This document shows positions 4,728 through 30,436 of a stretch of DNA of 30,436 bases, piece after piece. The translations under genes and the position numbers were made by a program. This DNA comes from a virus. Each line of letters opens with the position of its first letter. Positions within the stretch are counted from its first letter, which is position 1. The stretch covers positions 1 through 30,436 of the IMG/VR virus record IMGVR_UViG_3300050030_000003. One strand, written 5' to 3'. The notes below the pieces were generated by a model that was not told where the DNA came from, did no database searches, and saw nothing but the letters and a program-made list of their open reading frames with translations.

Positions 4728-4985
4728 TCAGAGCGATTCCAGCCAAGCGACCGCGACGGCCGCGACCTGAACGAGTTCGGTGCGCTGCGCGTCCTCGTCC
4801 CATTCGAGCACCGCGCGCGCGACCTCGCCGCACTCCTCGGCCAGCACGGACGACTTGACGATCGGTGGGAGCGCCGACTCGGGCGCCGAACAGTCGCCGT
4901 ATCCCCACTCGTGGCGGCGGTCCCACTTGGCGGACTGCGCGTCGCGTTCGGCGTCGATGAGGCGGTAGATGTCGGCGCGGTTCAC
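4728..4985 (-). CDS. MazG-like nucleotide pyrophosphohydrolase
   Basis: An 85-residue protein; its GTG (4985) overlaps the helicase-MTase stop as GTGA. It has the all-alpha NTP pyrophosphatase signature: AERDAQSAKW near residue 12, VLAEECGEVARAVLE at 47-61 (the E-x2-E metal-binding helix with E50, E51, E54), then a second helix ELVQVAAVAVAWLESL. This is the short single-domain form common in actinobacterial phages. The family hydrolyses nucleoside triphosphates to monophosphates and may alter nucleotide pools or alarmone levels during infection. Substrate cannot be told from sequence. Confidence 0.75.
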   Translation of the reverse strand: MNRADIYRLIDAERDAQSAKWDRRHEWGYGDCSAPESALPPIVKSSVLAEECGEVARAVLEWDEDAQRTELVQVAAVAVAWLESL

Positions 4986-7234
4986 TCGGCCACCTGCGAG
5001 AACAGCGTGCCTTGTTCGCGCAGAGATTCCGCCGCGCGCATGTTCGCGACCGCTTGCCGGTAGTAGCTCGGCTTCAACTCCACGCCGACGAACCGGCGCG
5101 CAAGCTGGACGGCGACGTATCCCTCAGATCCGATGCCCGCGAACGGCGACAGCACGAGATCGCCGGGGTTGCTCCAGAGCAGTAGCGCGCGTTCGATCAC
5201 GTCCAGTTGCAGCGGGCAGATGTGGCGCTCGTCCTTGTCCTCGCGCGCCGATTCCTTCTGCAACGTCCGGGACTGGTTGATATCCATCCATACCGGGCTC
5301 GCGTAGCGCTGCCACAGGTCGATGGACAGCCGACCGCCGGACGTGAACGTGTCGTCGCCTACCCATCGGTCCAGTTCTCCGGCGACAGGATGCGCGTTCA
5401 CGCCCGGCTTGCGCATGGTGACGAGGTAGTCCGGGATTCCCTGGCGGCTCATGCACGAGTCCTTCACCAGTTGCTTGTGCAGCAGCCCGAGCGCTTTCGT
5501 GCGCTGCATGGCGGTAACGGGGTCCTTCCAGATGACGACCTCGGAGTGGTATACGAATCCGCGCTCCTGAAACGCCTTTATCAGCTCGCCCCGGAAGTCG
5601 CGTATCCCGATCTCGCCGTCGCGGACCTTGCTCGTCGGCAGGTTCATGCAGTGGAAGGACACGAGTCGACCCGGCTGCGTGACGCGGAACAGTTCGTCGA
5701 CCAGGAACCCGAAGTGCTCCACGAACTCGTCATAGGTCGCGGAGTTGCCCATGTCGCGGTCGCTGTTCGAGTACGTGTAGAGGCTCGCGAAGGGCGGCGA
5801 GAACACGGAGAATCCGATGGAGTCGTCCGGCAGGTCGCGCACCTTATCGACGCAATCCCCGAGGTGCACGGTCCACCCGTCGCCGGACTCGTCATCGGTC
5901 AGGTACGCGGACTCGTCGCGGGTCGTGGCGTGCAGGTTGCCTTCCGTGATCTTGTGCGTGTGCGCGACCATCGACTCCTGCATGGCGGTCGCGTCGGATT
6001 CCTTGCGCTGGACGTTTCGCACGACTTCCCCCTCCGCTTCTGACGTGACGACGTGGACGGTGACCTCTTGCGTCTGACCGAAGCGCCAGCAGCGGCGGAC
6101 GGCCTGGTAGAACTGTTCGTAGGAGTCAGACAGCCCGCAGAACGCGACGTTGGAGCAGTGCTGCCAGTTCATCCCGAACCCGGCGATGGACGGCTTGGTC
6201 ACGAGCACGCGAATGGACCCGTCAGCGAACCCGAGCATGGATGATTCCTTGTGCTCGGGCGTGTCGGGACCACGAACCTCTACGGCATCGGGAATGGCGC
6301 GGGCCAGTGATTCGGCCTCGGCGTTGAAGTCGCACCACACGATCCACGGGCCGGGGTCGGACGCGACCAGCTCCGCGACCTTGCCGACGCGGTCGGTGAT
6401 CGAGCACTTGCGGGCCGCGCGCCGGTCGTCGAGCGTTCGGGCATCGACACCGAACAGCCGGCCGTCCTCGACCAGCGACGCGCCTACCGTGTGATGTTCG
6501 ATGTGCATCGGCGGCAGGTCGAACCCGTCGTCCGGGTAGCCGAGATCGTGCGGGCTTCGCAGCACCACGGACCATGACGCGACCCATTCCCAGAACTTGT
6601 CCTCGGCGTGGCCCTTGAGCCGCCACTTCGACGTGTCAGACCCGTCGTGTACGAAGAACATGGACAGCATTTCCGTGCGCGACATCACACCCATGAACTC
6701 GGCGTGGTTGCCAAGCTCCATGTAGTCGTTCGGGGCCGGGGTCGCGGTGCACGCGAGCCGGAACGGAGTGCCGCCGAACCCGCCGATGATCGCGTTGCGC
6801 GTCTTGCCGTCGTAGGCTTTCAGGATGCTTGACTCGTCCAGCACCACGCCACCGAACGCGTCCGCGTCGAAGTGCGGGAGCATTTCGTAGTTGGCGATGT
6901 TCACGCCGGGCGTCACGTCGTCTTGAGAGCGGCAAACCGTGACCGGCACGCCGAACTTCTCGCCCTCGCGCCGGGTCTGCTGCGAGACCGCGAGCGGGGC
7001 CAGGATCAGTACGGGACGATGCGTGTAGTCAGCGACGTGACGCGCCCATTCGAGCTGCATGGGAGTCTTGCCGAGGCCGCAGTCGGCGAAGATGCACGCC
7101 CGGCCCTTCGCCACGGCCCAACGTACGATGTCGTGCTGGAAGCCGAACAACTGCGCGTTGATGGCCGTGATCTGGAATCCAGCGTCACGAGCGACAACGC
7201 GCTTCTGGTCGAGAAACTCCGCGTACCCGCTCAT
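4982..7234 (-). CDS. SNF2-type helicase fused to DNA methyltransferase
   Basis: A 750-residue two-part protein. Residues 30-400 form a superfamily 2, SNF2-like ATPase: Walker A DCGLGKT (51-57), LDESS Walker B (132-136), TATP motif III (163-166), the C-terminal motif V region TKPSIAGFGMNWQHC and motif VI QAVRRCWRFGQT (377-388). Residues 450-735 are a methyltransferase: LGDC at 458, the catalytic SPPF (479-482), a recognition-like middle, and the AdoMet-binding SPFAGIGS (696-703) with VELKPSYY. The order catalytic motif first, AdoMet motif last is the permuted beta class of amino-methyltransferases. No nuclease domain is present. Likely modifies phage DNA against restriction or couples translocation to methylation; starts with an ATGA overlap. 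Confidence 0.88.
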   Translation of the reverse strand: MSGYAEFLDQKRVVARDAGFQITAINAQLFGFQHDIVRWAVAKGRACIFADCGLGKTPMQLEWARHVADYTHRPVLILAPLAVSQQTRREGEKFGVPVTVCRSQDDVTPGVNIANYEMLPHFDADAFGGVVLDESSILKAYDGKTRNAIIGGFGGTPFRLACTATPAPNDYMELGNHAEFMGVMSRTEMLSMFFVHDGSDTSKWRLKGHAEDKFWEWVASWSVVLRSPHDLGYPDDGFDLPPMHIEHHTVGASLVEDGRLFGVDARTLDDRRAARKCSITDRVGKVAELVASDPGPWIVWCDFNAEAESLARAIPDAVEVRGPDTPEHKESSMLGFADGSIRVLVTKPSIAGFGMNWQHCSNVAFCGLSDSYEQFYQAVRRCWRFGQTQEVTVHVVTSEAEGEVVRNVQRKESDATAMQESMVAHTHKITEGNLHATTRDESAYLTDDESGDGWTVHLGDCVDKVRDLPDDSIGFSVFSPPFASLYTYSNSDRDMGNSATYDEFVEHFGFLVDELFRVTQPGRLVSFHCMNLPTSKVRDGEIGIRDFRGELIKAFQERGFVYHSEVVIWKDPVTAMQRTKALGLLHKQLVKDSCMSRQGIPDYLVTMRKPGVNAHPVAGELDRWVGDDTFTSGGRLSIDLWQRYASPVWMDINQSRTLQKESAREDKDERHICPLQLDVIERALLLWSNPGDLVLSPFAGIGSEGYVAVQLARRFVGVELKPSYYRQAVANMRAAESLREQGTLFSQVAE

Positions 7235-8578: not shown

Positions 8579-8710
8579 TCACATCCCGTTCGCTTTCTTC
8601 TCGCGCATGGCGAGGGCGATGGTCTCCTCCATCTTCCCGAGGCGCCGCTGCATCTGTTCGTTGAGGTCGAGGACCGCCTGCTCGATAGCCGAGACTTCCA
8701 TCGGTGTCAC
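8579..8710 (-). CDS. Small helical protein after endolysin (43 aa)
   Basis: A 43-residue frame starting at GTG 8710, which overlaps the endolysin stop as GTGA and has AGGGA ahead of it. The sequence is one amphipathic helix (AIEQAVLDLNEQMQRRLGKM and on), which could form a coiled coil. A frame-shifted upstream extension to 9379 is a shadow of the endolysin gene. Perhaps a partner of the XhlA-like protein that follows after no gap; unknown family. Confidence 0.55.
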   Translation of the reverse strand: MTPMEVSAIEQAVLDLNEQMQRRLGKMEETIALAMREKKANGM

Positions 8711-9483
8711 AGTGTCCCTGCCTTCACCCTCGCGAGCATCGCATCCATGCTCTCCGTCTTGGCCGTGACCTTGCGCGAGTTCACCAGCAGGCCCACGCCG
8801 CGCGCTTTGTCCACGATCTGCACCGCGGCACTCTCGCGCGCTTCCGTGAGCCATGCGACCCGCTCGACGCCCCGTGCCGTGTAGCGCCCGCTCACGACCT
8901 TGCACTTGAGGTCGGTCGCGAACTGCGTCATGGCGACGGCGTTGGGGTTCGTGGCCGGTGTCGTGAACCAGATTCTGTGGCGCACTACCGGGACCGGGAC
9001 GCCGGGCGTGTAGTTCGGCCTTCCGTAGCCCGCTACGCCGGACCGTGAGCGCAGACGGCGCATGACCGCGCCACCATTGTCGTCCGAGCTGGTGGATGTG
9101 TTGCCCTCGATGGTCTGGATGCGTCCATCGGCCGGGAGGGCTTCCACGATGCCGACGTGGTGGATGCCGAGGTCGTCGTGCTCCCGGTTCCCGTTGGGTG
9201 CGCCGAAGTTGAAGAAGACCACATCGCCCACGACGGGTGACGTGTGCCACATGCCGTGAGCGCGGAACCACTTGGACATGCTCACGGTGTAGTTGTCGGC
9301 CCCGCCGATCAGCGCAAGCGCGTTGACCTGCCCGAAGCACCACGACACGAACGCGGCGCACCACGCGGCTCCCTGCCATCCCTGGCGCAGGTTGTTGTAC
9401 TTGACGACGTTGGACCCGGCGGGCGATTCGTGGACGCCGAGCTGCGACCGTGCCACGTCGAGGACTTGCCTAGCAGTTGTCAT
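8707..9483 (-). CDS. CHAP-domain endolysin
   Basis: A 258-residue protein. The N-terminal ~160 residues are a CHAP amidase/endopeptidase: GAAWCAAFVSWCF with catalytic C42, GDVVFFNFG, HHVGIVEAL with catalytic H109, and IEGNTS supplying the third polar residue near 126-128. CHAP enzymes cut peptidoglycan peptide bonds. Residues 170-258 form a second region (FATDLKCKVVSGRYTARGVERVAWLTEARES and following) with short helices, perhaps a wall-binding or hydrolase-accessory part. No signal peptide is seen, so it probably needs a holin, in keeping with the membrane proteins that follow. Confidence 0.9.
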   Translation of the reverse strand: MTTARQVLDVARSQLGVHESPAGSNVVKYNNLRQGWQGAAWCAAFVSWCFGQVNALALIGGADNYTVSMSKWFRAHGMWHTSPVVGDVVFFNFGAPNGNREHDDLGIHHVGIVEALPADGRIQTIEGNTSTSSDDNGGAVMRRLRSRSGVAGYGRPNYTPGVPVPVVRHRIWFTTPATNPNAVAMTQFATDLKCKVVSGRYTARGVERVAWLTEARESAAVQIVDKARGVGLLVNSRKVTAKTESMDAMLARVKAGTL

Positions 9484-10659: not shown

Positions 10660-12369
10660 TTAGGCCCCCGGGCTCAGGTAGCGGGGCCTGTAGCTCACCG
10701 CGACCGTCGAGACTCCCGGTGCAGCGGTCGGCGGGGTGGCAGCAGCCACGACGATGCAGTTGGTGCCGGGGCGCAGCATGAACGCGCCGCCCAACGCGTT
10801 CGAGGACGCGAGCAGGCTGTAGCCCGTGCCTCCGGTCGTTTGGTAGTAGAGGTCGCGCTCACGCGATATGGCCGCCATGTTGTCGAGCCTGATCCCCTCG
10901 CCCGCGCCAGCGGCGAAGGTAGCGATGACAGCCGCCTCGTCTATCGGCAGAAGTTCGGTCCAGTCCTGCTTGACGGTCTGCGATGCCTGTGAGGATTGCG
11001 GGCTGACGCCGATGGTGGTCTGGTACGACAGGAGGTAGTAGCCCCACAGTCGGAACAGCAACGCGCCGCCAACATGGGCGCCAGTCCCGTAGTTGTTGCC
11101 GATCATCTGGTGGAGTTCCCCACCGAAAGCGCTGTCGCTGTCTCCGACGTAGGTCGTGGAGGACCCGTAGAATCCGAGGTCGTGAACGCCCGACATCCAA
11201 CGGGGGCTGAAGTTCGCGACAGTTTGCCATCCGGTAGCAGGGCCAGCGATAGACCCCGCCGCGACCCCGTCCACGTACACACTCGTGGCCCAAGTCGAAG
11301 AGTCTATCTTGACGTCCAGTTGAGAGTAGAGTGCCAGCGGAAGACTGATCGTCTGGATGTACCCGCCGCCGCCGCCGTAAGATTCTGTGCCGGTCTCTTG
11401 GCTGCAGATGTCGGTCAAGATAGCGTCCAGCCCAGCCGAGGAAGCTCCAGCGGGGACGTTCATCACGGGGACATGGACGGGCGGGTATAGCGGCATGACG
11501 TCGAATCCGCCACTAGACGTGGTCGGCATGACGTTCGAAGATCCGTACACAGGCGGTCCCGAAGCGGTCCCCATCCACCCGAGCTTCATAGCGCCCGGTG
11601 TGGTCGCGCCGTTCTTGGCGCGGACGATAGGCAGGTAGTCGCCCTTCATGGCCGCCGCGTCCAGCACCGTGGGCGTGCCGACGGCGCTGATGAATGACGT
11701 CGGAACGCCGGACACGGACGCGCACCCGGAGCTGGTCTGCGCGTCACTCACGCCGTTGTAGTCCTGCACGAACGCGGTGCCGCTGGCGGAGGGGTTGGAG
11801 CGCAGGCCGATGGCGGTCATGGTGGTCGCCTGCGCGTGAGTCACGGTCACCATCGTCAGCGCGGGCACGTCCCCGGGCACGAGATCCACGTTCACGAAGC
11901 CACGCCCCTGCGCGATCGCGCCTGACGTGGGAGTGAGTGCGCCGCTGGAAACGTCCACGCGCGGGCCGACCCAGTAGGGCGCGGTCCGCATGTTGAGCGT
12001 GACGGTGAGCATCCCCGCTTCGGCCTTCATGCCCGACAGCTCGGACGTGTCCGATATCGGGGTACAGGCCCGCAGGGTGGTCTCCAGTATCACGTCGCCG
12101 CCCCGGGGCGTGTAGAAGACGGTGACGCCCTTGCGCAAGCGCTGGTACAGGTACGTGCGCCCTTCGTTGGCGGTCGGGCCGTCAGCCGCGACGATGCGCA
12201 CGGTGGCCGTGCGGGTGGCGTCGCCGTGCAGGTCGTTGTCCCACGTGCGCGGGTTGTCGTCCATCGCCTCCGACAGCAGCGGTGCCTCGGGCGCGTCGAA
12301 TCTCTCCAGGCTGAACGTGCAGCCCGCAGCGGTGCCGCCGTCTACGTCGAGTCCGTCGATCTGGAGCAT
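10660..12369 (-). CDS. Dit-like distal tail protein with large insertion
   Basis: A 569-residue protein, roughly twice the size of a plain Dit. Residues 1-160 look like the Dit belt domain (LQIDGLDVDGG start, LYQRLRKGVTVFYTPRGGDV, GMLTVTLNMRTAPYWVGP). A long middle section is glycine/serine rich and beta-prone (SLPLALYSQLDVKIDSSTW, VYVDGVAAGSIAGPATGW), as in carbohydrate-binding jelly-roll insertions of evolved Dit proteins. The C-terminus (NCIVVAAATP and VSTVAVSYRPRYL) closes the tail-ring fold. It would cap the tail tube and may bind the host surface. The tape measure ends one base before its start. Confidence 0.65.
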   Translation of the reverse strand: MLQIDGLDVDGGTAAGCTFSLERFDAPEAPLLSEAMDDNPRTWDNDLHGDATRTATVRIVAADGPTANEGRTYLYQRLRKGVTVFYTPRGGDVILETTLRACTPISDTSELSGMKAEAGMLTVTLNMRTAPYWVGPRVDVSSGALTPTSGAIAQGRGFVNVDLVPGDVPALTMVTVTHAQATTMTAIGLRSNPSASGTAFVQDYNGVSDAQTSSGCASVSGVPTSFISAVGTPTVLDAAAMKGDYLPIVRAKNGATTPGAMKLGWMGTASGPPVYGSSNVMPTTSSGGFDVMPLYPPVHVPVMNVPAGASSAGLDAILTDICSQETGTESYGGGGGYIQTISLPLALYSQLDVKIDSSTWATSVYVDGVAAGSIAGPATGWQTVANFSPRWMSGVHDLGFYGSSTTYVGDSDSAFGGELHQMIGNNYGTGAHVGGALLFRLWGYYLLSYQTTIGVSPQSSQASQTVKQDWTELLPIDEAAVIATFAAGAGEGIRLDNMAAISRERDLYYQTTGGTGYSLLASSNALGGAFMLRPGTNCIVVAAATPPTAAPGVSTVAVSYRPRYLSPGA

Positions 12370-14987: not shown

Positions 14988-15818
14988 TTAGGCGACGGTG
15001 GTGAAGCTCTTCTCGTAGCCGAGCGGGTTCGGCACGCCGTAGCCGGACTTGAGCCCCGGCACTATGACGACGCGGTACTTCGTGGTCCCGGACAGCGCCG
15101 AGACGGGGACCAGGCTCACGACGGCGCCCGCCTGCGAGATCGTGCAGGGGACGAACGTCGAGTCCGAGTCCTTGAGCATGAAGATGTGGTCGGTCGTCAC
15201 GTCGGCGGCGTCGAGCGCCACGGCGAACGTGATGGCGATGCCCGCCGTCTTGGACGCGGAGGTGCTACCCGAAGCCGGGTTGCAGCTGGCGAACGTCGGC
15301 GCGGTGGTGACGGCCGGGTTCGGCAGGTACTGGAAGACGCCGTTGATCGCGGTCTGGAAGAGCGCCGAGCCCTTGCACTGCCACGTCTGCTGCTTCATGG
15401 TCGGCGCGATCTCGCCGTCCGTCTTGAAGGTCATGGCGGGAATGGACATCTTCTTGGCCTGACCGTCGGCCTTCAGCCCGTACACGAAGACCTGGTACTT
15501 CGTCTTCAGCCCGCCACCGCCGGTGCCCGCCGTCATCGTGTCGTCGGTGGTGGTGGTGGTGGAGAGCGTGCCGGCGAACGCGCGCGCCAGGTTGGCGAGC
15601 GTGATCTGGTCTCCCTCGATCTCGATGTCGGCGCCGTAGCCGTACTCGTACTCGTCGACGACGGCGAAGTTGGCCGCCGCGCTCGTGATCGGCTCGGTCT
15701 TGGCGCTCGGCTTGACCGTGAACTTCACGATGCCGCCGACGCTCACACATGCTGCCTCGGCGGCGCCGAACGCGCCAACCTTTACGTCTGTGACAGGTCC
15801 AAGAACCTCGTATCCCAT
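14988..15818 (-). CDS. Major tail tube protein with C-terminal Ig-like domain
   Basis: A 276-residue protein with CAGGAGG ahead of ATG 15818. Residues 1-180 fit a tail tube subunit (GYEVLGPVTDVKVGAFG, an IEIEGDQITLANLARAFAG helix-strand, AMTFKTDGEIAPTM), and a Thr-run plus Gly-run linker lies near residues 85-103. Residues 185-276 form a Big_5-type bacterial Ig-like domain (PTFASCNPASGSTSASKTAG, IAITFAVALDAADV, GTTKYRVVIVPGLKS). Ig-like add-ons on tail tubes project from the tail surface and are thought to aid weak binding to the cell surface. Position, between tail terminator and chaperone, supports the call. Confidence 0.82.
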   Translation of the reverse strand: MGYEVLGPVTDVKVGAFGAAEAACVSVGGIVKFTVKPSAKTEPITSAAANFAVVDEYEYGYGADIEIEGDQITLANLARAFAGTLSTTTTTDDTMTAGTGGGGLKTKYQVFVYGLKADGQAKKMSIPAMTFKTDGEIAPTMKQQTWQCKGSALFQTAINGVFQYLPNPAVTTAPTFASCNPASGSTSASKTAGIAITFAVALDAADVTTDHIFMLKDSDSTFVPCTISQAGAVVSLVPVSALSGTTKYRVVIVPGLKSGYGVPNPLGYEKSFTTVA

Positions 15819-15904: not shown

Positions 15905-16354
15905 CTAGGCGGACTCTACGAGTTCGTGGACCACGCGGACTGCCACGCCTTGCACGAAGGTGGCATCATCCCGAAACGGCGGAGTCGCCCCGGCGAACGT
16001 GACGTTGATGGCCTTGTAGGGACCGGCGAAGCACGCGACCAGGGCGGTCAGGTAGCCGGTCCACAGCGCGCGCATTCCCGCAGGGTCGGCGGTCCGAAAC
16101 GAGATCGTCACCAGCCCTTCGAGAACGGTATCGGTGGATGCCCCCGCGTGCTCGACAGGCCCGCTCACCTCCGCGATCTCGACGCAGGGCCAGATGTAGG
16201 TGACGCGCGGGGAGTCGTAGATGGCGAGCCCGGAAGCGGTGGACGGGTCGGGAGCTATCGGCGGCAGACCAGCGGCCGCAAGAAGCGCGGGAAGGTTCTC
16301 GGTGACTGCGTCGACGCGCGCGGTGATGGTGGCCTCGGCGGCGTTCCATGTCAC
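15905..16354 (-). CDS. Tail terminator/completion-like protein
   Basis: A 149-residue protein. GTG 16354 is preferred because it overlaps the gpG-like stop as GTGA and has GGAG just ahead; an in-frame ATG at 16387 would add eleven residues. The sequence is alpha/beta: an N-terminal helix (ATITARVDAVTENLPALLAAAG), a strand PRVTYIWPCVEIAEV, and later DTVLEGLVTISFRTADPAGM. This pattern and its place between gpG-like and tail tube genes fit tail terminators (gpU-like) that cap the tube during assembly. Sequence similarity is weak, so the role is inferred from order. Confidence 0.55.
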   Translation of the reverse strand: MTWNAAEATITARVDAVTENLPALLAAAGLPPIAPDPSTASGLAIYDSPRVTYIWPCVEIAEVSGPVEHAGASTDTVLEGLVTISFRTADPAGMRALWTGYLTALVACFAGPYKAINVTFAGATPPFRDDATFVQGVAVRVVHELVESA

Positions 16355-16833
16355 TGCTCCCACTCCTTCCGAACGGCGTTGCCCCACTCGGCAAGCGCGC
16401 GGCCGAACAGCGACTTCTCCTGCTCTTCGCCGACGTCTATCGCCTTGCGGCCCTTGGCCCAGTGGTAGCCCGCGAGCCGGGTGGTCCCGACTTCCAGCGT
16501 GGTAGCGGTGGCTTTGAGTATCGAATCCCCGGTCTTGCCCACGAGACTCGCCCGCATGGCCCCGGTGGCGACGAGGATCCCCGCGCCGGGAAACATGGAC
16601 GCCTTGCGCGTGCGGTAGGGCTCGGACAGCTCATCCCACGCCCCGGCGCGTCCGGTCGAGCCCTGCTTCTCGAACAGCTCACGCTCCGACTCGTGGAATG
16701 CCGTGGCGAAGCGGTCCCACAGAGACAGGCCGCCGACGGGCTGGTCCAGCGCCATAGCCCGGCTCACGCGCGTGATGGCGAGCTTGACCTGCTCCTCGCC
16801 CTGGACGGTGATGCTGAGGGGCGCGGTGGTCAC
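16351..16833 (-). CDS. Mu gpG-like virion morphogenesis protein
   Basis: A 160-residue protein. The frame is open to 16989, but GTG 16833 overlaps the connector stop as GTGA and gives the normal N-terminus (TTAPLSITVQGEEQVKLAITRV). The middle carries the family pattern: LWDRFATAFHESERELFEKQGS, WDELSEPYRTRKASMFPGAG, ILVATGAMRASLVGKTGDS, followed by a strand TTLEVGTTRLAGYHWAKG. Phage Mu G and its relatives (phage virion morphogenesis, tail S) act at the head-tail joint or in tail completion. It lies between the connector and terminator-like genes. Confidence 0.75.
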   Translation of the reverse strand: MTTAPLSITVQGEEQVKLAITRVSRAMALDQPVGGLSLWDRFATAFHESERELFEKQGSTGRAGAWDELSEPYRTRKASMFPGAGILVATGAMRASLVGKTGDSILKATATTLEVGTTRLAGYHWAKGRKAIDVGEEQEKSLFGRALAEWGNAVRKEWEQ

Positions 16834-17303
16834 GAGTCGGCCCCGTATGCGCCGATGAACTCCTCGAGCGCCGCATCCACGAACGTGGACGGAGCGTTGG
16901 CGATACCCGCGTTTCCGCCCGTGCGAGGGCCTATCTTCGCGCGTCCCGACACCATCGGGGCTAGGATGCGCTCGGCCTGTTCGCGCCACACGGACGCGAC
17001 GCCTACCCGCTCAGGCGTGGGATTCAGCGAGATGATGAGGCGCTCCAGCAGCGAGGCCGCCACGAGTAGGTTCTCGGCGTCGGCGAGCAGTTCCAGCGCG
17101 CCTGCGTCGGCGATCGGCAGGGTGTAGCCCGCGGTGTCGAGCCGGGAGTTGATGGAGCGGTACTGAGCGGCCGCACACTCTGCGGCTTCGTCCGTCGACG
17201 GCTTCGAGGTTGGCGTGATCGTGAGCATCGTCAGGTAGCGTTGGACGCCCGCCAACGAGCCGTAGGTCGCACCGTCCAACTCCGTCTGCTCAGGGAAGGT
17301 CAT
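16830..17303 (-). CDS. Head-tail connector protein
   Basis: A 157-residue protein; ATG 17303 overlaps the fibre stop as ATGA, whereas the longer frame to 17858 is a shadow of the fibre gene. It is mostly helical (AAECAAAQYRSINSRLDTAGY, GALELLADAENLLVAASLLE, VASVWREQAERILAPMVSG), in keeping with small adaptor proteins of the gp6 or Mu gp36 type that join portal and tail. The gene directly before the gpG-like protein is the expected place for such an adaptor. Exact family uncertain. Confidence 0.6.
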   Translation of the reverse strand: MTFPEQTELDGATYGSLAGVQRYLTMLTITPTSKPSTDEAAECAAAQYRSINSRLDTAGYTLPIADAGALELLADAENLLVAASLLERLIISLNPTPERVGVASVWREQAERILAPMVSGRAKIGPRTGGNAGIANAPSTFVDAALEEFIGAYGADS

Positions 17304-19090
17304 ACCGTCACCTCCTGCGTCACGGTCGCGTGCTTGCGCAGCCTCGCCACGATCCTGTAGGTCGCGTTCTCGGGCAGGTCCATGTGCCACGTGCCGTTGG
17401 CCGCTGCTGTCACGGGGTCGGTCACGGGATCGGAGTAGTCGGTGTCGAACACCAGATAGGCGTCGATGACCGTGCCCGGTAGCAGCGTGCCGAGCGTGGC
17501 GTCTGAGATGCGGACGTAGCCGACGGGCGTCTCGCCGCCGCCGCCCGTCCCCCCATGCGTCAGGTTCGTCGTCGTGTCCACGAGCATCACACGTGCGACC
17601 GGCGTCGTGCCGTCCACGATGTCTTCGATGGCTCCGGTGACGGCGCTCAAGTCCGGCGTCCCGGCGTTGGAGGTCTGCACCTGCCCGCTCGTGTTCGTCA
17701 CCAGCTTGTTGGAGGGCGTGGAGAGGATGGCGGCAGCGACGTCGGCCGTGCTGGGAGCGGCGGCAGGTGGAGCGGCGTAGACGAGCGTGGTCACGAAGTC
17801 GACGAGACGCTTGCCTATCGAGCCAGCCGTGGTCTGTGCCGACGTTAGGGCGTTCCACACGGCCAACTGGACGCCTGAGTTTCCCGCAGTAGACAGCGCA
17901 TAGCCGGTCTTGTCAGCGTTGTTGAGCGTCTTCGCATCGACTTGGTTGGCCGTCGAGAACGCCAGCTGGTCGGTCTTTGCCTGTATGGCTGCCGCCTGCC
18001 CGCTCGTTGCAAGGCCCGCCGTACTCACGGTGGCGTTGGCATCCACGCGGCCGGAGGTGAAGGCGAGCTGGTCGGTCTTTGCCTGAACCGTAGCGACCTG
18101 CCCGCTGGTGGCGAGTCCGGCGACGCTCGGCGGGGCGGTGTACCCGCTCGTAGGCAGACGCGTGGCGATCAGCGCTTCCGTGCGTTGCAGTTCGGTGTTG
18201 ACGAAGCCGCTGGTAGCCAGCCCAGACGTGTCTACGGGAGCGTTCGCATCCACGCGCCCGCTGGTGAACGCCAGCTGGTCGGTCTTGGCTTGGACGGCTG
18301 CGACCTGCCCGCTGGTGGCGAGTGCGGCCACAGATGGCGGAGCGGCGTAGACGAGGGTGGTGACGAAGTCCATGAACCGCTTGCCCGCACTACCGGCCGT
18401 GGTGAGCGCAGACGTAGCCCTGTCCCACACCGCAGCAGCGATGCTCGTGTTCCCGGCCGTTGACAGGGCGTACCCCGTCTTGTCCGAGTTGTTGAGGGTC
18501 TTGGCGTCCACCTGGTTCGCCGTGGAGAACGCCAGCTGGTCGGTCTTGGCTTTGATGGTGGCGTTGTGCCCACCGGATGCGTCTACGGCGGCCAGTATTG
18601 CGTCGCTCGTGGTCTGCGCGACGGCGCTCGCCAGCTTGGTCGAGTTGGAATCCATTTCCGCACGCACGTCGGCGGCAGAAGCGCCGGATCCTGCGTTGGT
18701 GGACGTGACGTACCCCGACGCAGACGTGAGCAGTTTGTTGGCCGGGGTCGTCAGTATCCCGGCGGCTACGGCAGAGACGGACGGCGGTGCGCCGAATCCC
18801 TCGATGGTGGCGGCGTGGACGTGGACGGCCGCGACGTCGGCCACCAGCGCGGGCAGGTCTGCCGGGAACGTCTCCGTGGCGACCTTCGCTGTGCCGTTGA
18901 TGTCCCAGAGCACGGTGAGGCCCGCGAGCGTCGCGTCGGCGACCTGCACGCCGTACATGCCCGACGACGATTGCAGCTCGGTTATGCCCGTGGTCCGGCG
19001 GCTCTGCGCCACGCTCTTGTCCGGGCTGAGCAGCGTGTAGTAGACGCTCGCGCCCGTGTTCGCGGTCCCGAAGTTGGCGGTGATGAGCAC
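17300..19090 (-). CDS. Repeat-built fibre-like protein
   Basis: A 596-residue protein from GTG 19090 (AGGAGG ahead). Residues 1-100 form a beta-rich N-terminal domain (ITANFGTANTGASVYYTLL and on). From about 115 to 460 the protein is modular: two long copies with KTDQLAFSTANQVDAKTLNN, GYALSTAGN, VW..TSA.TTAG, and DFVTTLVYAAPP (residues 180-252 and 370-442), and two shorter copies with KTDQLAFTSGRVDANA (269-284, 338-353). TPANKLLTSASG and TPSNKLVTNTSG near the ends are also related. The C-terminal ~75 residues are a beta-sandwich-like domain. It looks like an extended trimeric fibre; its location before connector genes is atypical for a tail fibre. Confidence 0.7.
   Translation of the reverse strand: MLITANFGTANTGASVYYTLLSPDKSVAQSRRTTGITELQSSSGMYGVQVADATLAGLTVLWDINGTAKVATETFPADLPALVADVAAVHVHAATIEGFGAPPSVSAVAAGILTTPANKLLTSASGYVTSTNAGSGASAADVRAEMDSNSTKLASAVAQTTSDAILAAVDASGGHNATIKAKTDQLAFSTANQVDAKTLNNSDKTGYALSTAGNTSIAAAVWDRATSALTTAGSAGKRFMDFVTTLVYAAPPSVAALATSGQVAAVQAKTDQLAFTSGRVDANAPVDTSGLATSGFVNTELQRTEALIATRLPTSGYTAPPSVAGLATSGQVATVQAKTDQLAFTSGRVDANATVSTAGLATSGQAAAIQAKTDQLAFSTANQVDAKTLNNADKTGYALSTAGNSGVQLAVWNALTSAQTTAGSIGKRLVDFVTTLVYAAPPAAAPSTADVAAAILSTPSNKLVTNTSGQVQTSNAGTPDLSAVTGAIEDIVDGTTPVARVMLVDTTTNLTHGGTGGGGETPVGYVRISDATLGTLLPGTVIDAYLVFDTDYSDPVTDPVTAAANGTWHMDLPENATYRIVARLRKHATVTQEVTV
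17765..18556 (-). repeat. Internal coding repeats of fibre gene
   Basis: Two ~220-base direct repeats (about 17765-17986 and 18335-18556) encode nearly identical segments, and the DNA is close to identical in places (for example the stretch reading aacgccagctggtcggtctt). Two shorter repeats encoding KTDQLAFTSGRVDANA lie between them, near 18239-18286 and 18032-18079. The four KTDQLAF copies use similar codons, suggesting fairly recent duplication or recombination between modules. Confidence 0.8.
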
Positions 19091-19099
19091 GATGGCCTC

Positions 19100-19288
19100 C
19101 TAGACCAGTCGCTTGAGGACTTTGAGCATTCCGAGCTGGACGGTGGCGAGCTTCTTGATCGCCGTGTTGCATTGGGCCACGGTCGTGGAGTTGGTGTCGC
19201 GGACGCTGGTGAGCGTCGTGACAGCAGCCGCGTAGCTGTCCTTGAGGTCTTTGACCTCGGCTGCGGTGACGATAGGTACGACGGCCAT
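19100..19288 (-). CDS. Small helical hypothetical protein (62 aa)
   Basis: A 62-residue protein with GAGGAG upstream of ATG 19288. It is almost entirely predicted helix with heptad-like hydrophobics (VTAAEVKDLKDSYAAAVTTL, AIKKLATVQLGMLKVLKRLV), which could form a coiled coil or trimeric stalk. It lies between the 85-residue protein and the repeat fibre, with short gaps on both sides. Possibly a fibre-associated chaperone or small structural subunit; no recognised family. Confidence 0.6.
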   Translation of the reverse strand: MAVVPIVTAAEVKDLKDSYAAAVTTLTSVRDTNSTTVAQCNTAIKKLATVQLGMLKVLKRLV

Positions 19289-19291
19289 GTG

Positions 19292-19549
19292 CTACTCCTC
19301 GCTCGGCGGTGTCGGCGGGACGTATGGCACCTCGGCCGGCGGCGTCCAGCCGTCCACGGTGTTGAGCGCCCCGGCGACGATGGTGTACTTGCCACGGTCC
19401 CACCAGCGCGACACGTCCACGCAGGTCGCGTTGTTCTCGGCCTCGTCGATCTCGATGGACAGCGCCGGGAGCTTGGCAGCGTCCACCTTCGCGTAGGCGT
19501 CGGCCCACACGACTCCGAGGATGGCGCTTCCGTTGTGGTAGATGCGCAT
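19292..19549 (-). CDS. Small hypothetical protein (85 aa)
   Basis: An 85-residue protein; GGGAG precedes ATG 19549. The N-terminus is a strand (MRIYHNGSAILGVVWADAYAK), the middle has paired Trp (SRWWDRGKYTIVAGAL), and the C-terminus is proline-rich with acidic end (PPAEVPYVPPTPPSEE). It follows the beta-helix spike gene and precedes the coiled-coil gene. Likely a fibre accessory; function not recognised. Confidence 0.6.
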   Translation of the reverse strand: MRIYHNGSAILGVVWADAYAKVDAAKLPALSIEIDEAENNATCVDVSRWWDRGKYTIVAGALNTVDGWTPPAEVPYVPPTPPSEE

Positions 19550-19552
19550 GGT

Positions 19553-21157
19553 CTAGCTCCCGATGACGACGTAGCGGACGGTGTCGGTGTCGGTGAGGTC
19601 GCTGCTGGTGATCGTGAACTGCGTGGCCGAGCCGTTGACCACCTTGAGCGTGCGGTCGTTGAGGCTCGACGCCAGCAGCACCGTGTAGCTGGTAGCCGAC
19701 GTGAAGCCTGCTGCCGCGCCGGTGAGCGTCACCTGCACCGTTCCTGCTGTGAGCGCTGCGCTGCCCTCCACGACGTGCAGCCCGCGCAGGGTGCCGGTGC
19801 TTCCATGTAGACCGCTGGTGCCCTGTACGTTGGCGGTGCAGTTGGCGAACACGGTGCCGGGTGCGTTTGACACGAGCGTCGTGCCCGGTCCCGCGATTCC
19901 GACCGTGCAGCGGAGGATGAAGCCGCCGATGCGCTGCTCGAACACCCCATCGGCGTTGACGAGTGCACCCTGCTCAAAGTTGTAGCCGCTGCTCCCGCAG
20001 ATGGTCGAGTTGTCGCGGTGCTGGAATACGCTTCCTGGTCCGACCGTGACGCCGGGCAGCGTCGTGTAGGCTCCACCGTTGCGAAGCATCGACTGCTGGA
20101 AGGCGACAAACGACGGAGTGAATAGCAAGATGCCGTAGCGCGAGGCGGCGGTCCCGATGGTGGTGAGGCTGCTGTTCTGGATGGTGACGGCCATCGCTGA
20201 CAGGCCCGCTCCGGTGCGCAGGCAGTTGGTCGCGTAGATGTTGCAGAACTGCACGGTCATGCCCGCTTCGCAGGACACCCCGATGCCGCCCGTGGCGTAG
20301 GTGTTGGAGAACTTGAGAAGGTTGAGCAGAAGCCCCGGCTGCTGCCAGCGCGAGCCGTACGTGGTTCCCGTGGTCGAGATGACCGTGTTGTGTGTCACGA
20401 ACGCGAAGGTATCGTTTGCCGCCAGCCCGGTGACGGGGTTGCCGACCAGCGTAAGCGTGTCGGCGGTGTTGGACTGTACGACGCGATAGGTGTCGATCGA
20501 TGGCGACGACCCGGCAACCTTCGTGAACTTCACGAGCTTTCCGACATGCTCGCCCTCACCCGTCGCGGACCATCCCGCACCTGTGACGGTGACGGTCCCC
20601 TGCGTCGGCGTCGCTGTGCTTGCTTGTACCTGCGAGGCGATGGTCTGCGTCGCGCCAAGAGTGACCGAGCCGCGGATCTCAATGGTGAAGCTGCCCGTGG
20701 GGGTCTTTCCACCAAGCGTCGGCGTCGTCTCGCTATACGTCCCGGCTTCGACGATGACGACGACGTTTCCGCCGAAGCTGCCGGGTATCTGCGAGAAGGC
20801 GTAGGCGAGCGTGAGGAACGCATCGGCTCCGCTGGCCCAACCGTGCGCCGTGTCGTTGGTGCCGGTGGTGCTGACGTACAGGGTCATGGCCGCGAAGGAC
20901 TCCAGCGGCACCCAGGCCGTCGTGTAGCCGTAGAGCACGCTGCGGTCGGTGCGGTAGAACACGTCGCCCGCTACCGGCGAGGACGGGAACGCATCTCCCT
21001 TGGGGTAGACCTCGGCAGGGTCAGCCCCACCTAGCGGTGCCCACGACCGTACTCCCGCATCGTCAGACACCAGCGCGTAGCCAGATGTCTCGGGCGCGCC
21101 AAGCGCAGGCTCGGCTCCCACGTCTGCCGGTACGCTCGGGACGTACGTTGCTCCCAT
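19553..21157 (-). CDS. Beta-helix spike/fibre protein
   Basis: A protein of about 534 residues. Two ATGs abut; the second (21157) has better spacing from GGAGG, the first (21160) overlaps the lipoprotein stop as ATGA. The N-terminal ~90 residues are an adapter (GYALVSDDAGVRSWAPLGG, then FPSSPVAGDVFYRTDRSVLYG, a motif common to phage fibres). Next is a pectate-lyase-type start, LYVSTTGTNDTAHGWASGADA, IVEAGTYSE, then many short beta-strand turns rich in Gly, Thr and Asn to the C-terminus, as in right-handed beta-helices. Such spikes bind or cleave surface glycans; catalytic acids cannot be assigned. Confidence 0.75.
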   Translation of the reverse strand: MGATYVPSVPADVGAEPALGAPETSGYALVSDDAGVRSWAPLGGADPAEVYPKGDAFPSSPVAGDVFYRTDRSVLYGYTTAWVPLESFAAMTLYVSTTGTNDTAHGWASGADAFLTLAYAFSQIPGSFGGNVVVIVEAGTYSETTPTLGGKTPTGSFTIEIRGSVTLGATQTIASQVQASTATPTQGTVTVTGAGWSATGEGEHVGKLVKFTKVAGSSPSIDTYRVVQSNTADTLTLVGNPVTGLAANDTFAFVTHNTVISTTGTTYGSRWQQPGLLLNLLKFSNTYATGGIGVSCEAGMTVQFCNIYATNCLRTGAGLSAMAVTIQNSSLTTIGTAASRYGILLFTPSFVAFQQSMLRNGGAYTTLPGVTVGPGSVFQHRDNSTICGSSGYNFEQGALVNADGVFEQRIGGFILRCTVGIAGPGTTLVSNAPGTVFANCTANVQGTSGLHGSTGTLRGLHVVEGSAALTAGTVQVTLTGAAAGFTSATSYTVLLASSLNDRTLKVVNGSATQFTITSSDLTDTDTVRYVVIGS

Positions 21158-21471
21158 CATCGGCCTCCGTCTATCAGGCGGTGCGTGCGCGAGAAAGAGG
21201 CATCATGCGCGTGCAGGTCGGCCTCGAACGCGGCCTCGAAGTCGGTACGGCGCATGTACTCGCCACGGTCAGCTCCCTCGACGTACTGCCAGATCGGGAC
21301 GGTACGGTCGGGCAGGACCGTGACTCCGCTCGCGTCCAGAGTGCGGACGATGATGGGCGTCGTAGTGGACAGCAGGCGAGGGGTGGACGCGGGCGCGGAA
21401 GAGGCGCACCCCGTGAGTAGGAGCACGAAGAAGAGCGCGGCAACTAGGCCCTTGGGGGTCAGACGGGACAT
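21157..21471 (-). CDS. Predicted phage lipoprotein
   Basis: A 104-residue protein with AGGAGG ahead of ATG 21471. The N-terminus has a basic start (MSRLTPKG), a hydrophobic core (LVAALFFVLLL) and a lipobox LTGC with the lipidated cysteine at 22, followed by a Ser/Pro/Thr-rich linker. The remainder is a short alpha/beta region (PIIVRTLDASGVTVLPDRTV, RTDFEAAFEADLHAHDASF). Processed phage lipoproteins can block superinfection at the surface or work as Rz1-type spanins; the position between capsid-associated and spike genes, not in the lysis cassette, favours the former. No specific family recognised. Confidence 0.65.
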   Translation of the reverse strand: MSRLTPKGLVAALFFVLLLTGCASSAPASTPRLLSTTTPIIVRTLDASGVTVLPDRTVPIWQYVEGADRGEYMRRTDFEAAFEADLHAHDASFSRTHRLIDGGR

Positions 21472-21526
21472 GGGTCACCTCCTACGTCGGCGCAACGCGC
21501 GCGGGTGCGTGCGCTGTGTGGACGCA

Positions 21527-21558
21527 CGGAGGCGGACTGGTCTCCCAAGCCGCCTCCG
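21527..21558 (-). other. Perfect 9-bp hairpin in intergenic gap
   Basis: cggaggcgg (21527-21535) and ccgcctccg (21550-21558) are exact complements around a 14-base loop, in the 115-base gap between the HPNG-domain protein and the lipoprotein. The flanks gacgca (21521) and tgcgtc (21572) could extend it. No U-tract follows on the minus strand, so termination would have to be weak or factor-dependent. Confidence 0.45.
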
Positions 21559-21586
21559 CAGACGGGTCAGTTGCGTCGCAGTCGGA

Positions 21587-21922
21587 CTATGCGTCCGGAT
21601 CCGGCTCGGGGTCCGGCTCGGGTGTGGCGAGCACACGCAGCGCAGGATCGGCACGGACCGCGTCGGCCTGCGCCTGCGTCAGCTCGTGCGTCTGCGGCTC
21701 GGCCGTCCACGTCACGCCGCCCCGGACACGCTGTCCGTTGGGGTGGTTCTGGTCGGCCAGACGGGCGGTGACGGGGAAGCGGCAGGAGGCGTGGTCCAGA
21801 GCGGACAGCACCTCGCCCTTCTCCTCACTCGTCACGGTGTGGTCTGCGAGCGCGGCCGACGTGGCCTTGCGGGCGGCTGCTCGAGCGGCTCGCTCCTCCG
21901 GTGTCATGCGTCTGCGTGCCAT
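21587..21922 (-). CDS. HPNG-domain small protein (111 aa)
   Basis: A 111-residue protein. It starts with a basic helix (MARRRMTPEERAARAAARK), then an acidic/helical linker, then a domain RLADQNHPNGQRVRGGVTWT followed by THELTQAQADAVRADPALRV, the same domain as at the N-terminus of the larger neighbour. The short C-terminal tail is a PEPDPEPDPDA run. The domain is of the kind found in Mu-like head clusters (HI1506-like), of unknown function. It lies between the lectin-like protein and the lipoprotein. Confidence 0.65.
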   Translation of the reverse strand: MARRRMTPEERAARAAARKATSAALADHTVTSEEKGEVLSALDHASCRFPVTARLADQNHPNGQRVRGGVTWTAEPQTHELTQAQADAVRADPALRVLATPEPDPEPDPDA

Positions 21923-21935
21923 TGCTCCTCCTAGA

Positions 21936-22718
21936 CTAGGACAGAGCCGTCCGGTAGACGGCTGCGGTGCGTGTGATGATGGTCATGGCGTCGGCCTGGG
22001 AGATGTCGATCCCCAGCGCGAGGTCCGCAACAGTGGTCGCCACGTTGTCCCACGTCCCGGGAGCGGCATAGCCCAGATCGGTCGTGTAGTAGGAATGCTC
22101 GATGTCGGGCCACCAGTTGTACCAGCGCCCGTCCGCATAGGTGTCGTCAGTGGCGCTGAGGATCTCGGTCCACACGACACCGTCCGAGGACTGGTACACC
22201 TTGAGGCTGGCGCCGGTCACCGTGAGCTTGAAGTAGTGGCCGTCGGCCTTGGCTATGGTGGCGGTATCCAGCTCCACTCCGTCGCCGTCGTCCACCCGTG
22301 ACAACCGGCAGAGCGAGTAGTCCTCAGTGGTGCCGTTGTACGTCACGTCGAGCGAGTACCCGTTGTGCTGAGCGGCGTCGGCGGCCGACATGCGGGCGAA
22401 GGCCCAAGCGACGGCGTTGTTGTTCTGGCTGTCGAGTGAGGCGGTGTCGTGGAAGAGGAAGGTCAGCGAACCGTCTACCCCTTCGAGATTAGCGGCCTCC
22501 GGAGCGGTGGCCTTCACGATGGCGGCCGGAGCGATAGCGAGCGGAGAATCGACTTCCCACGCGTCGCTCTCGACCTCCGGGTCGGCGAGGATAGCGGCGG
22601 CTTGTTCATCCGTCACCGTCGCCACTTGCCATGCTCGCTGGATGTCCAGACCCCCAACGGCCCGGCGGCCGTTGGGGTGGTCCGGACGAGCAAGGCGTAC
22701 GTGGACCGTGGTTGTCAC
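21936..22718 (-). CDS. HPNG domain fused to lectin-like domain
   Basis: A 260-residue protein from GTG 22718 with AGGTGG ahead. The first ~55 residues repeat the HPNG-type domain (VHVRLARPDHPNGRRAVGG, TVTDEQAAAILADPEVES). Residues 80-225 look like a concanavalin/laminin-G jelly roll (SLTFLFHDTASLDSQNNNAV, YFKLTVTGASLKVYQSSDG), with Trp-rich loops (GRWYNWWPDIEHSYY). The C-terminus is helical. Following directly after the major capsid gene, it is a good candidate for a capsid-surface decoration protein binding glycans or cells. That role is inference. Confidence 0.65.
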   Translation of the reverse strand: MTTTVHVRLARPDHPNGRRAVGGLDIQRAWQVATVTDEQAAAILADPEVESDAWEVDSPLAIAPAAIVKATAPEAANLEGVDGSLTFLFHDTASLDSQNNNAVAWAFARMSAADAAQHNGYSLDVTYNGTTEDYSLCRLSRVDDGDGVELDTATIAKADGHYFKLTVTGASLKVYQSSDGVVWTEILSATDDTYADGRWYNWWPDIEHSYYTTDLGYAAPGTWDNVATTVADLALGIDISQADAMTIITRTAAVYRTALS

Positions 22719-22727: not shown

Positions 22728-23627
22728 CTAGCCCGGGACGATGGTTCCGACAATCGCCTGCGGGAATCCCGCGGCGACGTCCCAGCGACCGTCCACGCCG
22801 TAGAATATCTCGCCGGTCTTGAAGAGGCTGGTGTCGTCTTCCTTGTACTCCGGCATCTTGCGGATGCCCCGGATGATCGGCGGCACCAGCGCGTCGGTGT
22901 CCACGAGGTACCAGTTGGTCGTATCGGTAAGCGACGGGAGAACGACGACCTTCAGCCCGGACAGGGCGTTGTAGTCCGACGTGGTGCCGATCTTGAAGGG
23001 CGACTTGACCAGAGCGTTGGCGACGTACTGCAAGGCGTTGGGAACGACGAGCGCCTTGGCGGACAGGCCGAGGTTACGGCCCTCGGAATCCGCGAAGCCA
23101 GCCATCATGCCCATGCCGGTCAGGACGTAGCCGTAGCCGGTCGCGTCGGCCGACAGCGCCCCGGTGCCGTTCTTGTTGTCGAACGCGGCGTACGCGCCGA
23201 ATGCCGGGTGGCTATCGTCCACGAGCGGCTGGCCGTCGTAGCACGTCGAGTTGGCGTCGAGCACTCCAGAGGCCGCAGCGTCCAGCTCACGCAGCGCGCC
23301 GGCGGCCATGAGCCGGATCTGAGGACCGTACTGGCCCAGGGCATCGTCGTCGATGTCGTCCTGCTTCATGCCGATCGTGTGCTCGTAGTGCTTCGGGGTG
23401 ATCGTGAACGACTTGGCGATCACGTCGCGCACCTGGCGCTCGCCGAGCCACTCACGCATCTTGCCGAGCGCGGCGACCCACGACAGGCTCATCGTGCCGG
23501 TCGTCATCGGCACGTCCAGGACGATGCCGGACAGGTCAGCGCGCGGCGAAGAGTCGAAGGTCTCCATCGCGATCGCGCGGAAAGCGGTCTGAGCCGTGGT
23601 GAGTGCGGCCTTGTTGATGATTCCCAT
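22728..23627 (-). CDS. Mu gpT-like major capsid protein
   Basis: A 299-residue protein, typical size for a gpT-like major head subunit. Visible family features: start MGIINKAALTTAQTAFRAIAM, the conserved SWVAALGKMREWLGERQVRD and then FTITPKHYEHTIGMKQDDI, a DGQPLVDDSHPAFGA segment, and the C-terminal VVLPSLTDTTNWYLVDTDA with FKTGEIFYGVDGRWDVAAGFPQ. It folds as HK97-type capsid protein in this family. AAAGGAGG lies a little far (11 bases) from the ATG, yet this start matches the family N-terminus. It follows the decoration and protease genes. Confidence 0.9.
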   Translation of the reverse strand: MGIINKAALTTAQTAFRAIAMETFDSSPRADLSGIVLDVPMTTGTMSLSWVAALGKMREWLGERQVRDVIAKSFTITPKHYEHTIGMKQDDIDDDALGQYGPQIRLMAAGALRELDAAASGVLDANSTCYDGQPLVDDSHPAFGAYAAFDNKNGTGALSADATGYGYVLTGMGMMAGFADSEGRNLGLSAKALVVPNALQYVANALVKSPFKIGTTSDYNALSGLKVVVLPSLTDTTNWYLVDTDALVPPIIRGIRKMPEYKEDDTSLFKTGEIFYGVDGRWDVAAGFPQAIVGTIVPG

Positions 23628-26613: not shown

Positions 26614-26865
26614 TCATGGATCGACCTCAATGACTCGGCCGTCGGCGGTGGTCACCTGCGCCCCCGGCCAGTGGTCACCAGGGGCATCGGAATAGCAGTC
26701 CGGAGGAGATGGATAGTCCAACGCAATCGGGCCGACTGCGAACCCTTCCTCGGCGGCACCGCCGGGAACCAGAAGGCTCATCTCCTGGGCGGACTTCTCC
26801 GTGCTCCCGACGCCGATGATGCCCAGCCCTTTGTCGTTCTGCCAGAGAGCCAGCCAGACATTCAT
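26614..26865 (-). CDS. Small hypothetical protein in head operon (83 aa)
   Basis: An 83-residue protein; ATG 26865 overlaps the portal stop as TGATG. It contains beta-prone NVWLALWQNDKGLGIIGVGS, a hydrophobic/Gly loop, and a C-terminal AQVTTADGRVIEVDP strand. It is acidic and compact with no known motif. It separates portal and F-like genes and is coupled to the portal. Function unknown. Confidence 0.6.
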   Translation of the reverse strand: MNVWLALWQNDKGLGIIGVGSTEKSAQEMSLLVPGGAAEEGFAVGPIALDYPSPPDCYSDAPGDHWPGAQVTTADGRVIEVDP

Positions 26866-28238
26866 CAGCGCACCGCCAGTGACAGTCGGGCGGCCTGAAG
26901 TTCGTCTGCCAGACGCATGGCGGCGTCGCGGTTCTCAGCCATCGTGGAGTCGGGCGTGCCTTCGGTCTGCGCGCTCTCGCCGGTCCGTGTGGGAACGCCG
27001 ATGCGCTCGGCTATCGAGTCGCCGTCGACGTCCACGCTCCCGGCCTTCACCAGTTCGGTGAACAGCGAGCCGAGGTAGAGCTTGTCCTCGTCAGACATCC
27101 CGGGGGTGACGATGCGCGGGATGGCAACGTCGCCGAACGTGTAGCGGATCAGCCGAGGCACGATCTGCGCGTTGACGGCGTCGATGATCTCGGAGAACGT
27201 CCCTTGCACACCGAGCAGCCAGACGTCCTTGTGCGTGTCGGACAAGGCGTTGCTCCCGCCGTCGCCGTTGAGCACCTTCTCGGGAGTCAGCAGGCCGAGC
27301 ATCATGCGCATCTCCAGCGCCTTGGCACCCGCGAGGAAAGCGCCGGCGGTCTGCGCGCGCTGCGCGTCCTCCACCAGCGAGACGGCCCAGGAGGCTTCGC
27401 CATCCATCGACGACTGCGTCCACATGCTCGTCGCATCGCTCTGGAAGCCCGCGGCGATCGCGCGTGCCGTGTTGGCGTTCGCGACGCCATCGCTGTTCTC
27501 GCCGGGGGGAAACTCGACGTGAACGGCAGGAGTGGTCCTGCGCGCCATGAAGCGCATGAACAGCGAGTGCAGGATCCGGTGGGCGTACCAGGCGTCGTAG
27601 ACGGAGAGCAGCCGCCCTTCGCCCCAGTAGTTGCCGAAGCGCATCCCGCTTGAGAAGTGGAAGCATCGCTCGGCTTCGAGGTGCAGGTACGGGTAGGTCA
27701 GGCCGAGCCCGTTGAAGTCCTCAAGGCCGTTGACGTAGATGGACACCAGCGACGCGGGGTCGATGTCCTTGACCTTGGACAGCGTCCAGCCGGTGACCGT
27801 GTTCTCGACAACAGCGCCCGCGTCGTCCGCCGTCTTCACGCTCGTGTCGGTGCGCTGGTAGACGGTCTCGAAAGGCGCGCAGCCCTCGTAGACTCCGGTG
27901 CGCGCGCATCCCTTGATGATGGACCCCCACACGGGCTCTATCGCCGCGCGGATGAACTCGGCGTGCAGCGCATCGGGACCGTCCACGTCCCACGGCGCGA
28001 ACCTGAGCGCCAGCTCGGAGAGCGCGGAGCACGCCTTGATCGTGGGGTCGAGCATCATCTTCCGCATGACCGTGAAGCTGATTCCGCTCGGGCGGTACGT
28101 CCCGATGTTGGCTTCCAGGTCGCCGATGTAGCTCGACGCGATAGACCCGCTGCCGTGCCCGGCGATGTCGCCTTCGGGCGGAGTCTCGACGCCTGCGAAG
28201 GCACGGTAAGCGCTACCGAGTCGGGTCGCTATCGTCAC
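26865..28238 (-). CDS. Mu gp29-like portal protein
   Basis: A 457-residue protein starting at GTG 28238 with GGAGG ahead and a GTGA overlap with the terminase. Portal-family features: early helix-rich ARLGSAYRAF-type region, MRKMMLDPTIKACSALSELA, GVYEGCAPFETVYQ, a conserved WYAHRILHSLFMRFMARRTT helix, and GLLTPEKVLNGDGGS near residue 310. This is the DUF935/Mu gp29 pattern. It would form the dodecameric ring at the capsid vertex through which DNA passes. It sits between terminase and minor head genes. Confidence 0.85.
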   Translation of the reverse strand: MTIATRLGSAYRAFAGVETPPEGDIAGHGSGSIASSYIGDLEANIGTYRPSGISFTVMRKMMLDPTIKACSALSELALRFAPWDVDGPDALHAEFIRAAIEPVWGSIIKGCARTGVYEGCAPFETVYQRTDTSVKTADDAGAVVENTVTGWTLSKVKDIDPASLVSIYVNGLEDFNGLGLTYPYLHLEAERCFHFSSGMRFGNYWGEGRLLSVYDAWYAHRILHSLFMRFMARRTTPAVHVEFPPGENSDGVANANTARAIAAGFQSDATSMWTQSSMDGEASWAVSLVEDAQRAQTAGAFLAGAKALEMRMMLGLLTPEKVLNGDGGSNALSDTHKDVWLLGVQGTFSEIIDAVNAQIVPRLIRYTFGDVAIPRIVTPGMSDEDKLYLGSLFTELVKAGSVDVDGDSIAERIGVPTRTGESAQTEGTPDSTMAENRDAAMRLADELQAARLSLAVR

Positions 28239-30375: not shown

Positions 30376-30416
<41 letters not shown>

Positions 30417-30436
30417 AGCCAGGGCGGCGGGGGCGG

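Follow-up and report, generated by a model that had tools for sequence, protein, structure and literature searches.

A predicted adsorption cassette between capsid and connector genes in a siphovirus-like phage whose capsid is of the Mu gpT type

Siphophages normally need a receptor binder at the tail tip, where their receptor-binding proteins (RBPs) are usually found. The outside of the capsid may carry accessory proteins such as JBD30 gp39, which cryo-electron microscopy located as trimers around the three-fold and pseudo-three-fold axes of the capsid exterior (PMC11445458). The gene of JBD30 gp39 lies directly after that of the major capsid protein (MCP), and the protein belongs, with Mu gp35, to the Pfam family FluMu_N. 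Here we describe a cassette of seven open reading frames (ORFs), all on the minus strand (22718-17300), between a Mu gpT-type MCP gene and connector genes of a tailed bacterial virus (Table 1). The window, i.e. the whole stretch analysed, comprises 30,436 nt (positions 1 to 30,436 of IMG/VR record IMGVR_UViG_3300050030_000003).

The coordinates of the cassette match the ORFs exactly. Its genes are spaced by -4 to +13 nt, apart from an interval of 115 nt ahead of the lipoprotein gene. The next gene starts (17303) within the stop of the fibre gene, the overlap being ATGA; because of this short spacing and overlap we regard the cassette as part of one tight operon. For comparison, two scans with a Mu-type MCP alignment together with cultured phages gave 141 loci with a gp36-type gene downstream of the MCP, in which the gap from MCP to gp36 had a median of 376 nt and a maximum of 881 nt, versus 5,425 nt here. 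The original prediction, made from the letters of the window, of a cassette of about 5.4 kb at this place is thus borne out. In annotated cultured phages whose MCP or portal is related, no gene between MCP and connectors is annotated as spike or fibre. Two metagenome-assembled genomes (MAGs) yielded separate observations. In an Armatimonadota MAG (L206, 10876-14160) a Mu-type MCP is followed by a 97-amino-acid (aa) ORF and then by a 1005-aa ORF without known family, perhaps another large protein sited after the capsid gene; in a Rhodocyclaceae MAG with a Mu-type MCP (L127, 13100-14300) a possible small adhesin-like ORF lies between the connector region and the tape measure gene.

HPNG1 and HPNG2, the products of the first two genes, share 38% identity, and the start of HPNG1 is 9 nt past the MCP stop, i.e. 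directly after a Mu-type MCP as in the gp35 family. A profile made from HPNG1, HPNG2 and the HPNG protein of a relative (L045, see below) was searched against 44,333 six-frame ORFs of the fetched loci. The best foreign matches were ORFs directly after a Mu-type MCP, namely D108 gp35 (E=0.0041) and those of L084/L153 (0.0066), with further matches at the same place in L204 (0.047), JBD30 (gp39, 0.12) and others. Reversely, a gp35 profile containing no HPNG sequence gave 106 hits, 101 of which lie directly after the MCP, and this independent profile recognised HPNG2 (E=2.8e-5; hhalign 94%). The two-way searches rule out a chance similarity, and on sequence grounds we assign the HPNG domain to the FluMu_N (Mu gp35/JBD30 gp39) family. 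A mixed profile also matched the PDB chains 2out (FluMu gp35) and 8rkc_B (JBD30 minor capsid protein); these matches are not independent, since the profile includes gp35 members, and the TALE proteins found among them are repeat noise, no single stretch being significant. A Pfam scan of the single sequences gave no family match for the HPNG domain, and the small post-MCP proteins of Gordonia and Bacillus phages are not HPNG-like. Given the homology of the domain to JBD30 gp39, which covers the outside of the capsid, HPNG1 probably decorates the capsid and carries a further domain of about 200 residues.

This C-terminal domain looks, by eye, like a lectin and is a possible sugar-binding part. 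AlphaFold2 modelled residues 1-50 of HPNG1 with a predicted local distance difference test score (pLDDT) of 88-96 and most of the remainder below 50. A fold search of the PDB with HPNG1 returned nothing significant, HI1506 (2out) being second-ranked (E=2). None of the 106 gp35-family ORFs has a C-terminal extension like that of HPNG1, the longest tails among them looking coiled or of low complexity. A search of 398 genomes for a lectin-fused FluMu_N gave 17 matches, in open frames 76-266 aa long; the two that were read, of 266 aa and 203 aa, carry N-terminal extensions and no C-terminal domain.

The spike is the probable receptor-binding or depolymerase protein of the cassette, as predicted from its sequence features. 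Its C-terminal 68 residues resemble K1-lyase_C (PF24146) over nearly the full model (E=3.8e-4; 21.3 bits versus a cut-off of 27). Its body has a beta-helix motif recognised by eye, which found no Pfam or PDB match, and the AlphaFold2 model, made from the single sequence, was unusable (pLDDT 33). The spike-type gene of the original prediction stands; its beta-helix body keeps the status of a motif seen by eye. From the same motif and the below-cut-off K1-lyase_C match we infer that the spike could be a pectate-lyase-type enzyme. The predicted repeat of the fibre is confirmed (local self-alignment score 334, against at most 82 in shuffles) and has relatives in other phages, near tail-type genes; the fibre C-terminus matches PF13620 below the cut-off (0.0065). 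Neither HPNG1 nor the spike nor the fibre had a match in the phage collection. The foreseen lipoprotein is confirmed by a signal sequence and a lipobox; its weak spanin- or Cor-like matches (phrog_1275, 0.04; phrog_1119, 0.15) are not significant. The roles suggested below for the fibre and the two helpers are presumptive.

The only locus resembling this phage at the post-MCP site is L045, a relative whose head genes are 48-69% identical. There the MCP gene is followed by an HPNG protein of 85 aa, then a small ORF, a protein of 552 aa and an ORF of 127 aa, and the contig breaks off where one more gene has begun. At their N-termini the spike and the 552-aa protein have anchors that align (score 44; 1 in 2000 shuffles) and the remainder differs, which is why we read the pair as RBPs with a swapped business end; the 552-aa protein has an Asp-box-like motif (BNR, not significant) and, by eye, a jelly-roll-like insert. 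The gene order in relatives, to which the original prediction pointed, thus revealed a second RBP-sized gene between MCP and downstream genes, with a different business end. The post-MCP position looks like a lineage-specific RBP site, one relative being thin evidence for a conserved one. At 7400-7600 of L045 the small ORF overlaps the 552-aa gene in another frame and its end resembles the start of a fibre anchor; these two ORFs may be one protein split by a frameshift or a sequencing error.

Scans A1 and A2 of viral_contigs recovered L045 and a sister contig (IMGVR_UViG_3300048803_000001, L044) as the only relatives, and scan A2 of genome_contigs none. The sister contig is 100% identical over 13.5-17.6 kb of the same region, extends beyond the window from position 30377 and ends in the 27-bp tandem repeat ORF in which the window begins (repeats of the type WADGNSVIE; positions 1-474 of the window, 1-400 of L044). 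As both contigs break inside the repeat and the reading frame is continuous across it, the genome closes at about 37.5 kb, the length of the repeat being uncertain. Besides small genes, the part outside the window has those of a DnaB helicase and a C5 methylase. Apart from the cassette, the closed genome showed no spike or fibre gene that could be recognised; the cassette therefore most likely carries the RBPs, with spike and fibre as adsorption proteins. At positions 30377-30436 the window has a G run followed by a C run where the sister contig has ordinary sequence, thus these runs are probably an assembly artefact. A misassembly of the cassette itself is very unlikely, since the second contig (which may not be independent, if from the same sample) is identical and L045, comparable in layout, carries a gene of RBP size in this position.

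Table 1 Genes of the cassette and its flanks, with the basis of each assignment (positions in the window)
Feature	Position	Strand	Basis	Remark
MCP, Mu gpT type	22728..23627	-	PF10124 8.8e-40; phrog_371 7.9e-44	borders the cassette on the left in gene order
HPNG1, 260 aa	21936..22718	-	FluMu_N/gp35-type domain (~residues 1-52) and C-terminal domain of ~200 residues, lectin-like by eye	
HPNG2, 111 aa	21587..21922	-	FluMu_N/gp35-type decoration protein with N-terminal basic extension; gp35 profile E=2.8e-5	
Small lipoprotein, 104 aa	21157..21471	-	signal sequence, lipobox LTGC (sequence)	
Spike, 535 aa	19553..21160	-	N-terminal anchor motif, beta-helix-like body by motif, K1-lyase_C-like C-terminus	
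Helper, 85 aa	19292..19549	-	position; DUF7340 0.0078, below cut-off	
Helper, 62 aa	19100..19288	-	position; helical by composition; no significant family	
Repeat fibre, 596 aa	17300..19090	-	internal repeat; weak CarboxypepD_reg-like C-terminus	
Next gene, 157 aa	16830..17303	-	connector by position only	
Mu G/Neck1-like connector protein	16351..16836	-	phrog_26 0.0011; G profile E=1e-4	right boundary

The surroundings of the cassette belong to a Mu gpT-type head module, with the MCP, a gp29-like portal (phrog_113, 6e-35), an I-like protease (phrog_328, 1.7e-13) and an F-like protein (Phage_Mu_F, 0.0014, below cut-off). The gp36 and gp37 profiles missed the genes after the cassette; as the gp36 profile did not recognise the 157-aa gene, it is called a connector by position only. 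The protein in the tail-tube position (14988-15818, -) has a C-terminal immunoglobulin-like (Ig-like) domain, Big_5 (6.2e-15). Downstream of the tape measure gene there are only a Dit-position protein (10660-12369, -; 569 aa), a hub-position protein (10658-9615), an endolysin and a holin-position gene. The original prediction of a tail end with no clear receptor-binding gene is thus correct as regards separate fibre genes; the Dit-position protein, however, in which no library searched recognised a family or domain, is large enough to carry a binding domain. The portal (26865-28238, -) has matches of about 20-23% in Gordonia, Bacillus, Staphylococcus and one Pectobacterium phage, and the endolysin (8707-9483, -) matches mostly Streptomyces phages; from these two proteins, a Gram-positive, perhaps actinobacterial, host is possible. 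In a single 750-aa protein (4982-7234, -), a helicase part of the SNF2 type is joined to an N6/N4 DNA methylase part.

We propose that the cassette serves adsorption: in this siphovirus-like phage, whose capsid is of the Mu gpT type, the adsorption locus would lie between capsid and connector genes, with HPNG1 on the capsid and the spike and fibre as tail-tip RBPs; taken as a whole, we give this explanation an even chance. Its starting points are direct observations (gene content and order, HPNG homology, closure of the genome and the site shared with one relative). Adsorption would start with weak multivalent contacts through the capsid domain of HPNG1 and the Ig-like domain of the tail tube, and the tail tip would then commit, the spike binding surface polysaccharide and perhaps cutting it, and the fibre making the specific contact. 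The two small proteins encoded between spike and fibre would help assembly. For spike and fibre the tail tip is more likely than the head, since siphophages normally need a binder there and the relatives of the fibre repeat lie near tail-type genes. The original prediction had offered moved adsorption genes or capsid-attached fibres; each alternative is partly supported, for different genes, with spike and fibre very probably the RBPs and HPNG1 probably on the capsid by its homology to gp39.

Several points weigh against this explanation. HPNG1 was not significantly recognised by the independent gp35 profile (E=16), hence its tie to the gp35 family runs only through HPNG2 and their 38% identity. 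The lectin-like character of its C-terminus, also claimed originally, was judged by eye, found no match in Pfam, PHROGs, the PDB or phage sequences, and coincides with the low-confidence part of the model; of that claim, two proteins sharing the HPNG domain is the part that holds. JBD30 gp39 was seen on part of the virions only (PMC11445458); its Mu counterpart, gp35, went unresolved in the virion of that phage and has been proposed to play a connector role there (PMC11915804). A second candidate decoration protein (24071-23658; phrog_1731) may compete for the capsid sites. Finally, spike and fibre are placed on the tail by inference.

We consider it unlikely that all seven genes form an adsorption module of the tail or neck that moved in gene order, with connector-related HPNG proteins and no glycan binding on the capsid. 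Such a move would suit the usual tail-tip location of siphophage RBPs and the tail-type surroundings of the fibre repeat relatives. The suggested connector relation of Mu gp35, unseen on the Mu capsid (PMC11915804), would extend it to the HPNG proteins, but the solved member with the most similar gene position, JBD30 gp39, lies on the outside of the capsid (PMC11445458).

A head-borne array, in which HPNG1, spike and fibre are all attached to the capsid and adsorption is head-first, is distinctly improbable. The cassette does lie inside the head block, between decoration genes and connectors, a position kept in L045, and capsid glycan binding has precedents in HFTV1 (PMC12494034), Douge (PMC13033339) and the head fibres of phi29 (PMC7602432). 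However, spike and fibre showed no capsid-binding domain, and in that case the phage would lack a binder at its tail tip, unless this part falls to the Dit- or hub-position proteins. We see an equally slim chance for the full arrangement of a decoration-domain lectin at the capsid three-fold sites, a head-mounted spike and fibre, and head-first adsorption in a bacterial siphophage. Of the capsid-borne glycan-binding array suggested originally, the probable, homology-based placement of HPNG1 on the capsid is retained; the rest hinges on the unproven lectin call and on the location of spike and fibre. It is very unlikely that the lipoprotein, the helpers and the HPNG1 C-terminal domain are accessory cargo of a head operon, e.g. 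for superinfection exclusion or lysis, for although a lipobox protein with weak Cor- or spanin-like matches is an improbable virion part, the proteins of 535 and 596 aa have the look of a spike and a fibre, and L045 has an RBP-type protein at the site.

If the proposed adsorption locus is real, gp35/FluMu_N, a common and little-understood family of small proteins, would be linked to the display of adhesion domains on the capsid, and receptor-binding genes of phages could reside in the head block and be exchanged there. The phage shell itself may bind sugars, and capsid-first adsorption, so far argued for HFTV1 and partly for Douge, would become testable in a bacterial siphophage. Should the extra domain of HPNG1 not be a lectin and spike and fibre be on the tail tip, the locus would be a less surprising rearrangement of gene order. 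Two elements would be new, namely the fusion of a large additional domain to a decoration domain of the FluMu_N type and the presence of an RBP cassette within the head block; a limited literature search found neither described.

Among known systems, the capsid turrets of HFTV1 are alike in their proposed capsid glycan binding, enzyme-like domain and part in the first adsorption step (PMC12494034); HFTV1 is, however, an archaeal virus that uses a turret base protein, on capsid hexamers, and head proteins, and it is likened here by description. Mycobacteriophage Douge has glycan-binding domains on capsid and tail tube (PMC13033339), the latter comparable to the Ig-like tail tube domain here, whereas its capsid domain is part of the MCP and its RBPs are in the tail tip. 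The phi29 head fibre gp8.5, T4 Hoc, T5 pb10 and SPP1 gp12 are capsid proteins thought to aid attachment (PMC7602432), but have unrelated anchor folds as described and no spike-plus-fibre cassette. Capsule depolymerase spikes of the K1-lyase type have a C-terminal domain that the C-terminus of the spike resembles, with the match below the curated cut-off and the catalytic body not recognised. A likeness in both domain and gene position is found with JBD30 gp39, Mu gp35 and HI1506, whose FluMu_N domain is homologous and encoded right after the MCP; HPNG1 differs in adding a large C-terminal domain to it, and two HPNG genes follow each other in a row.

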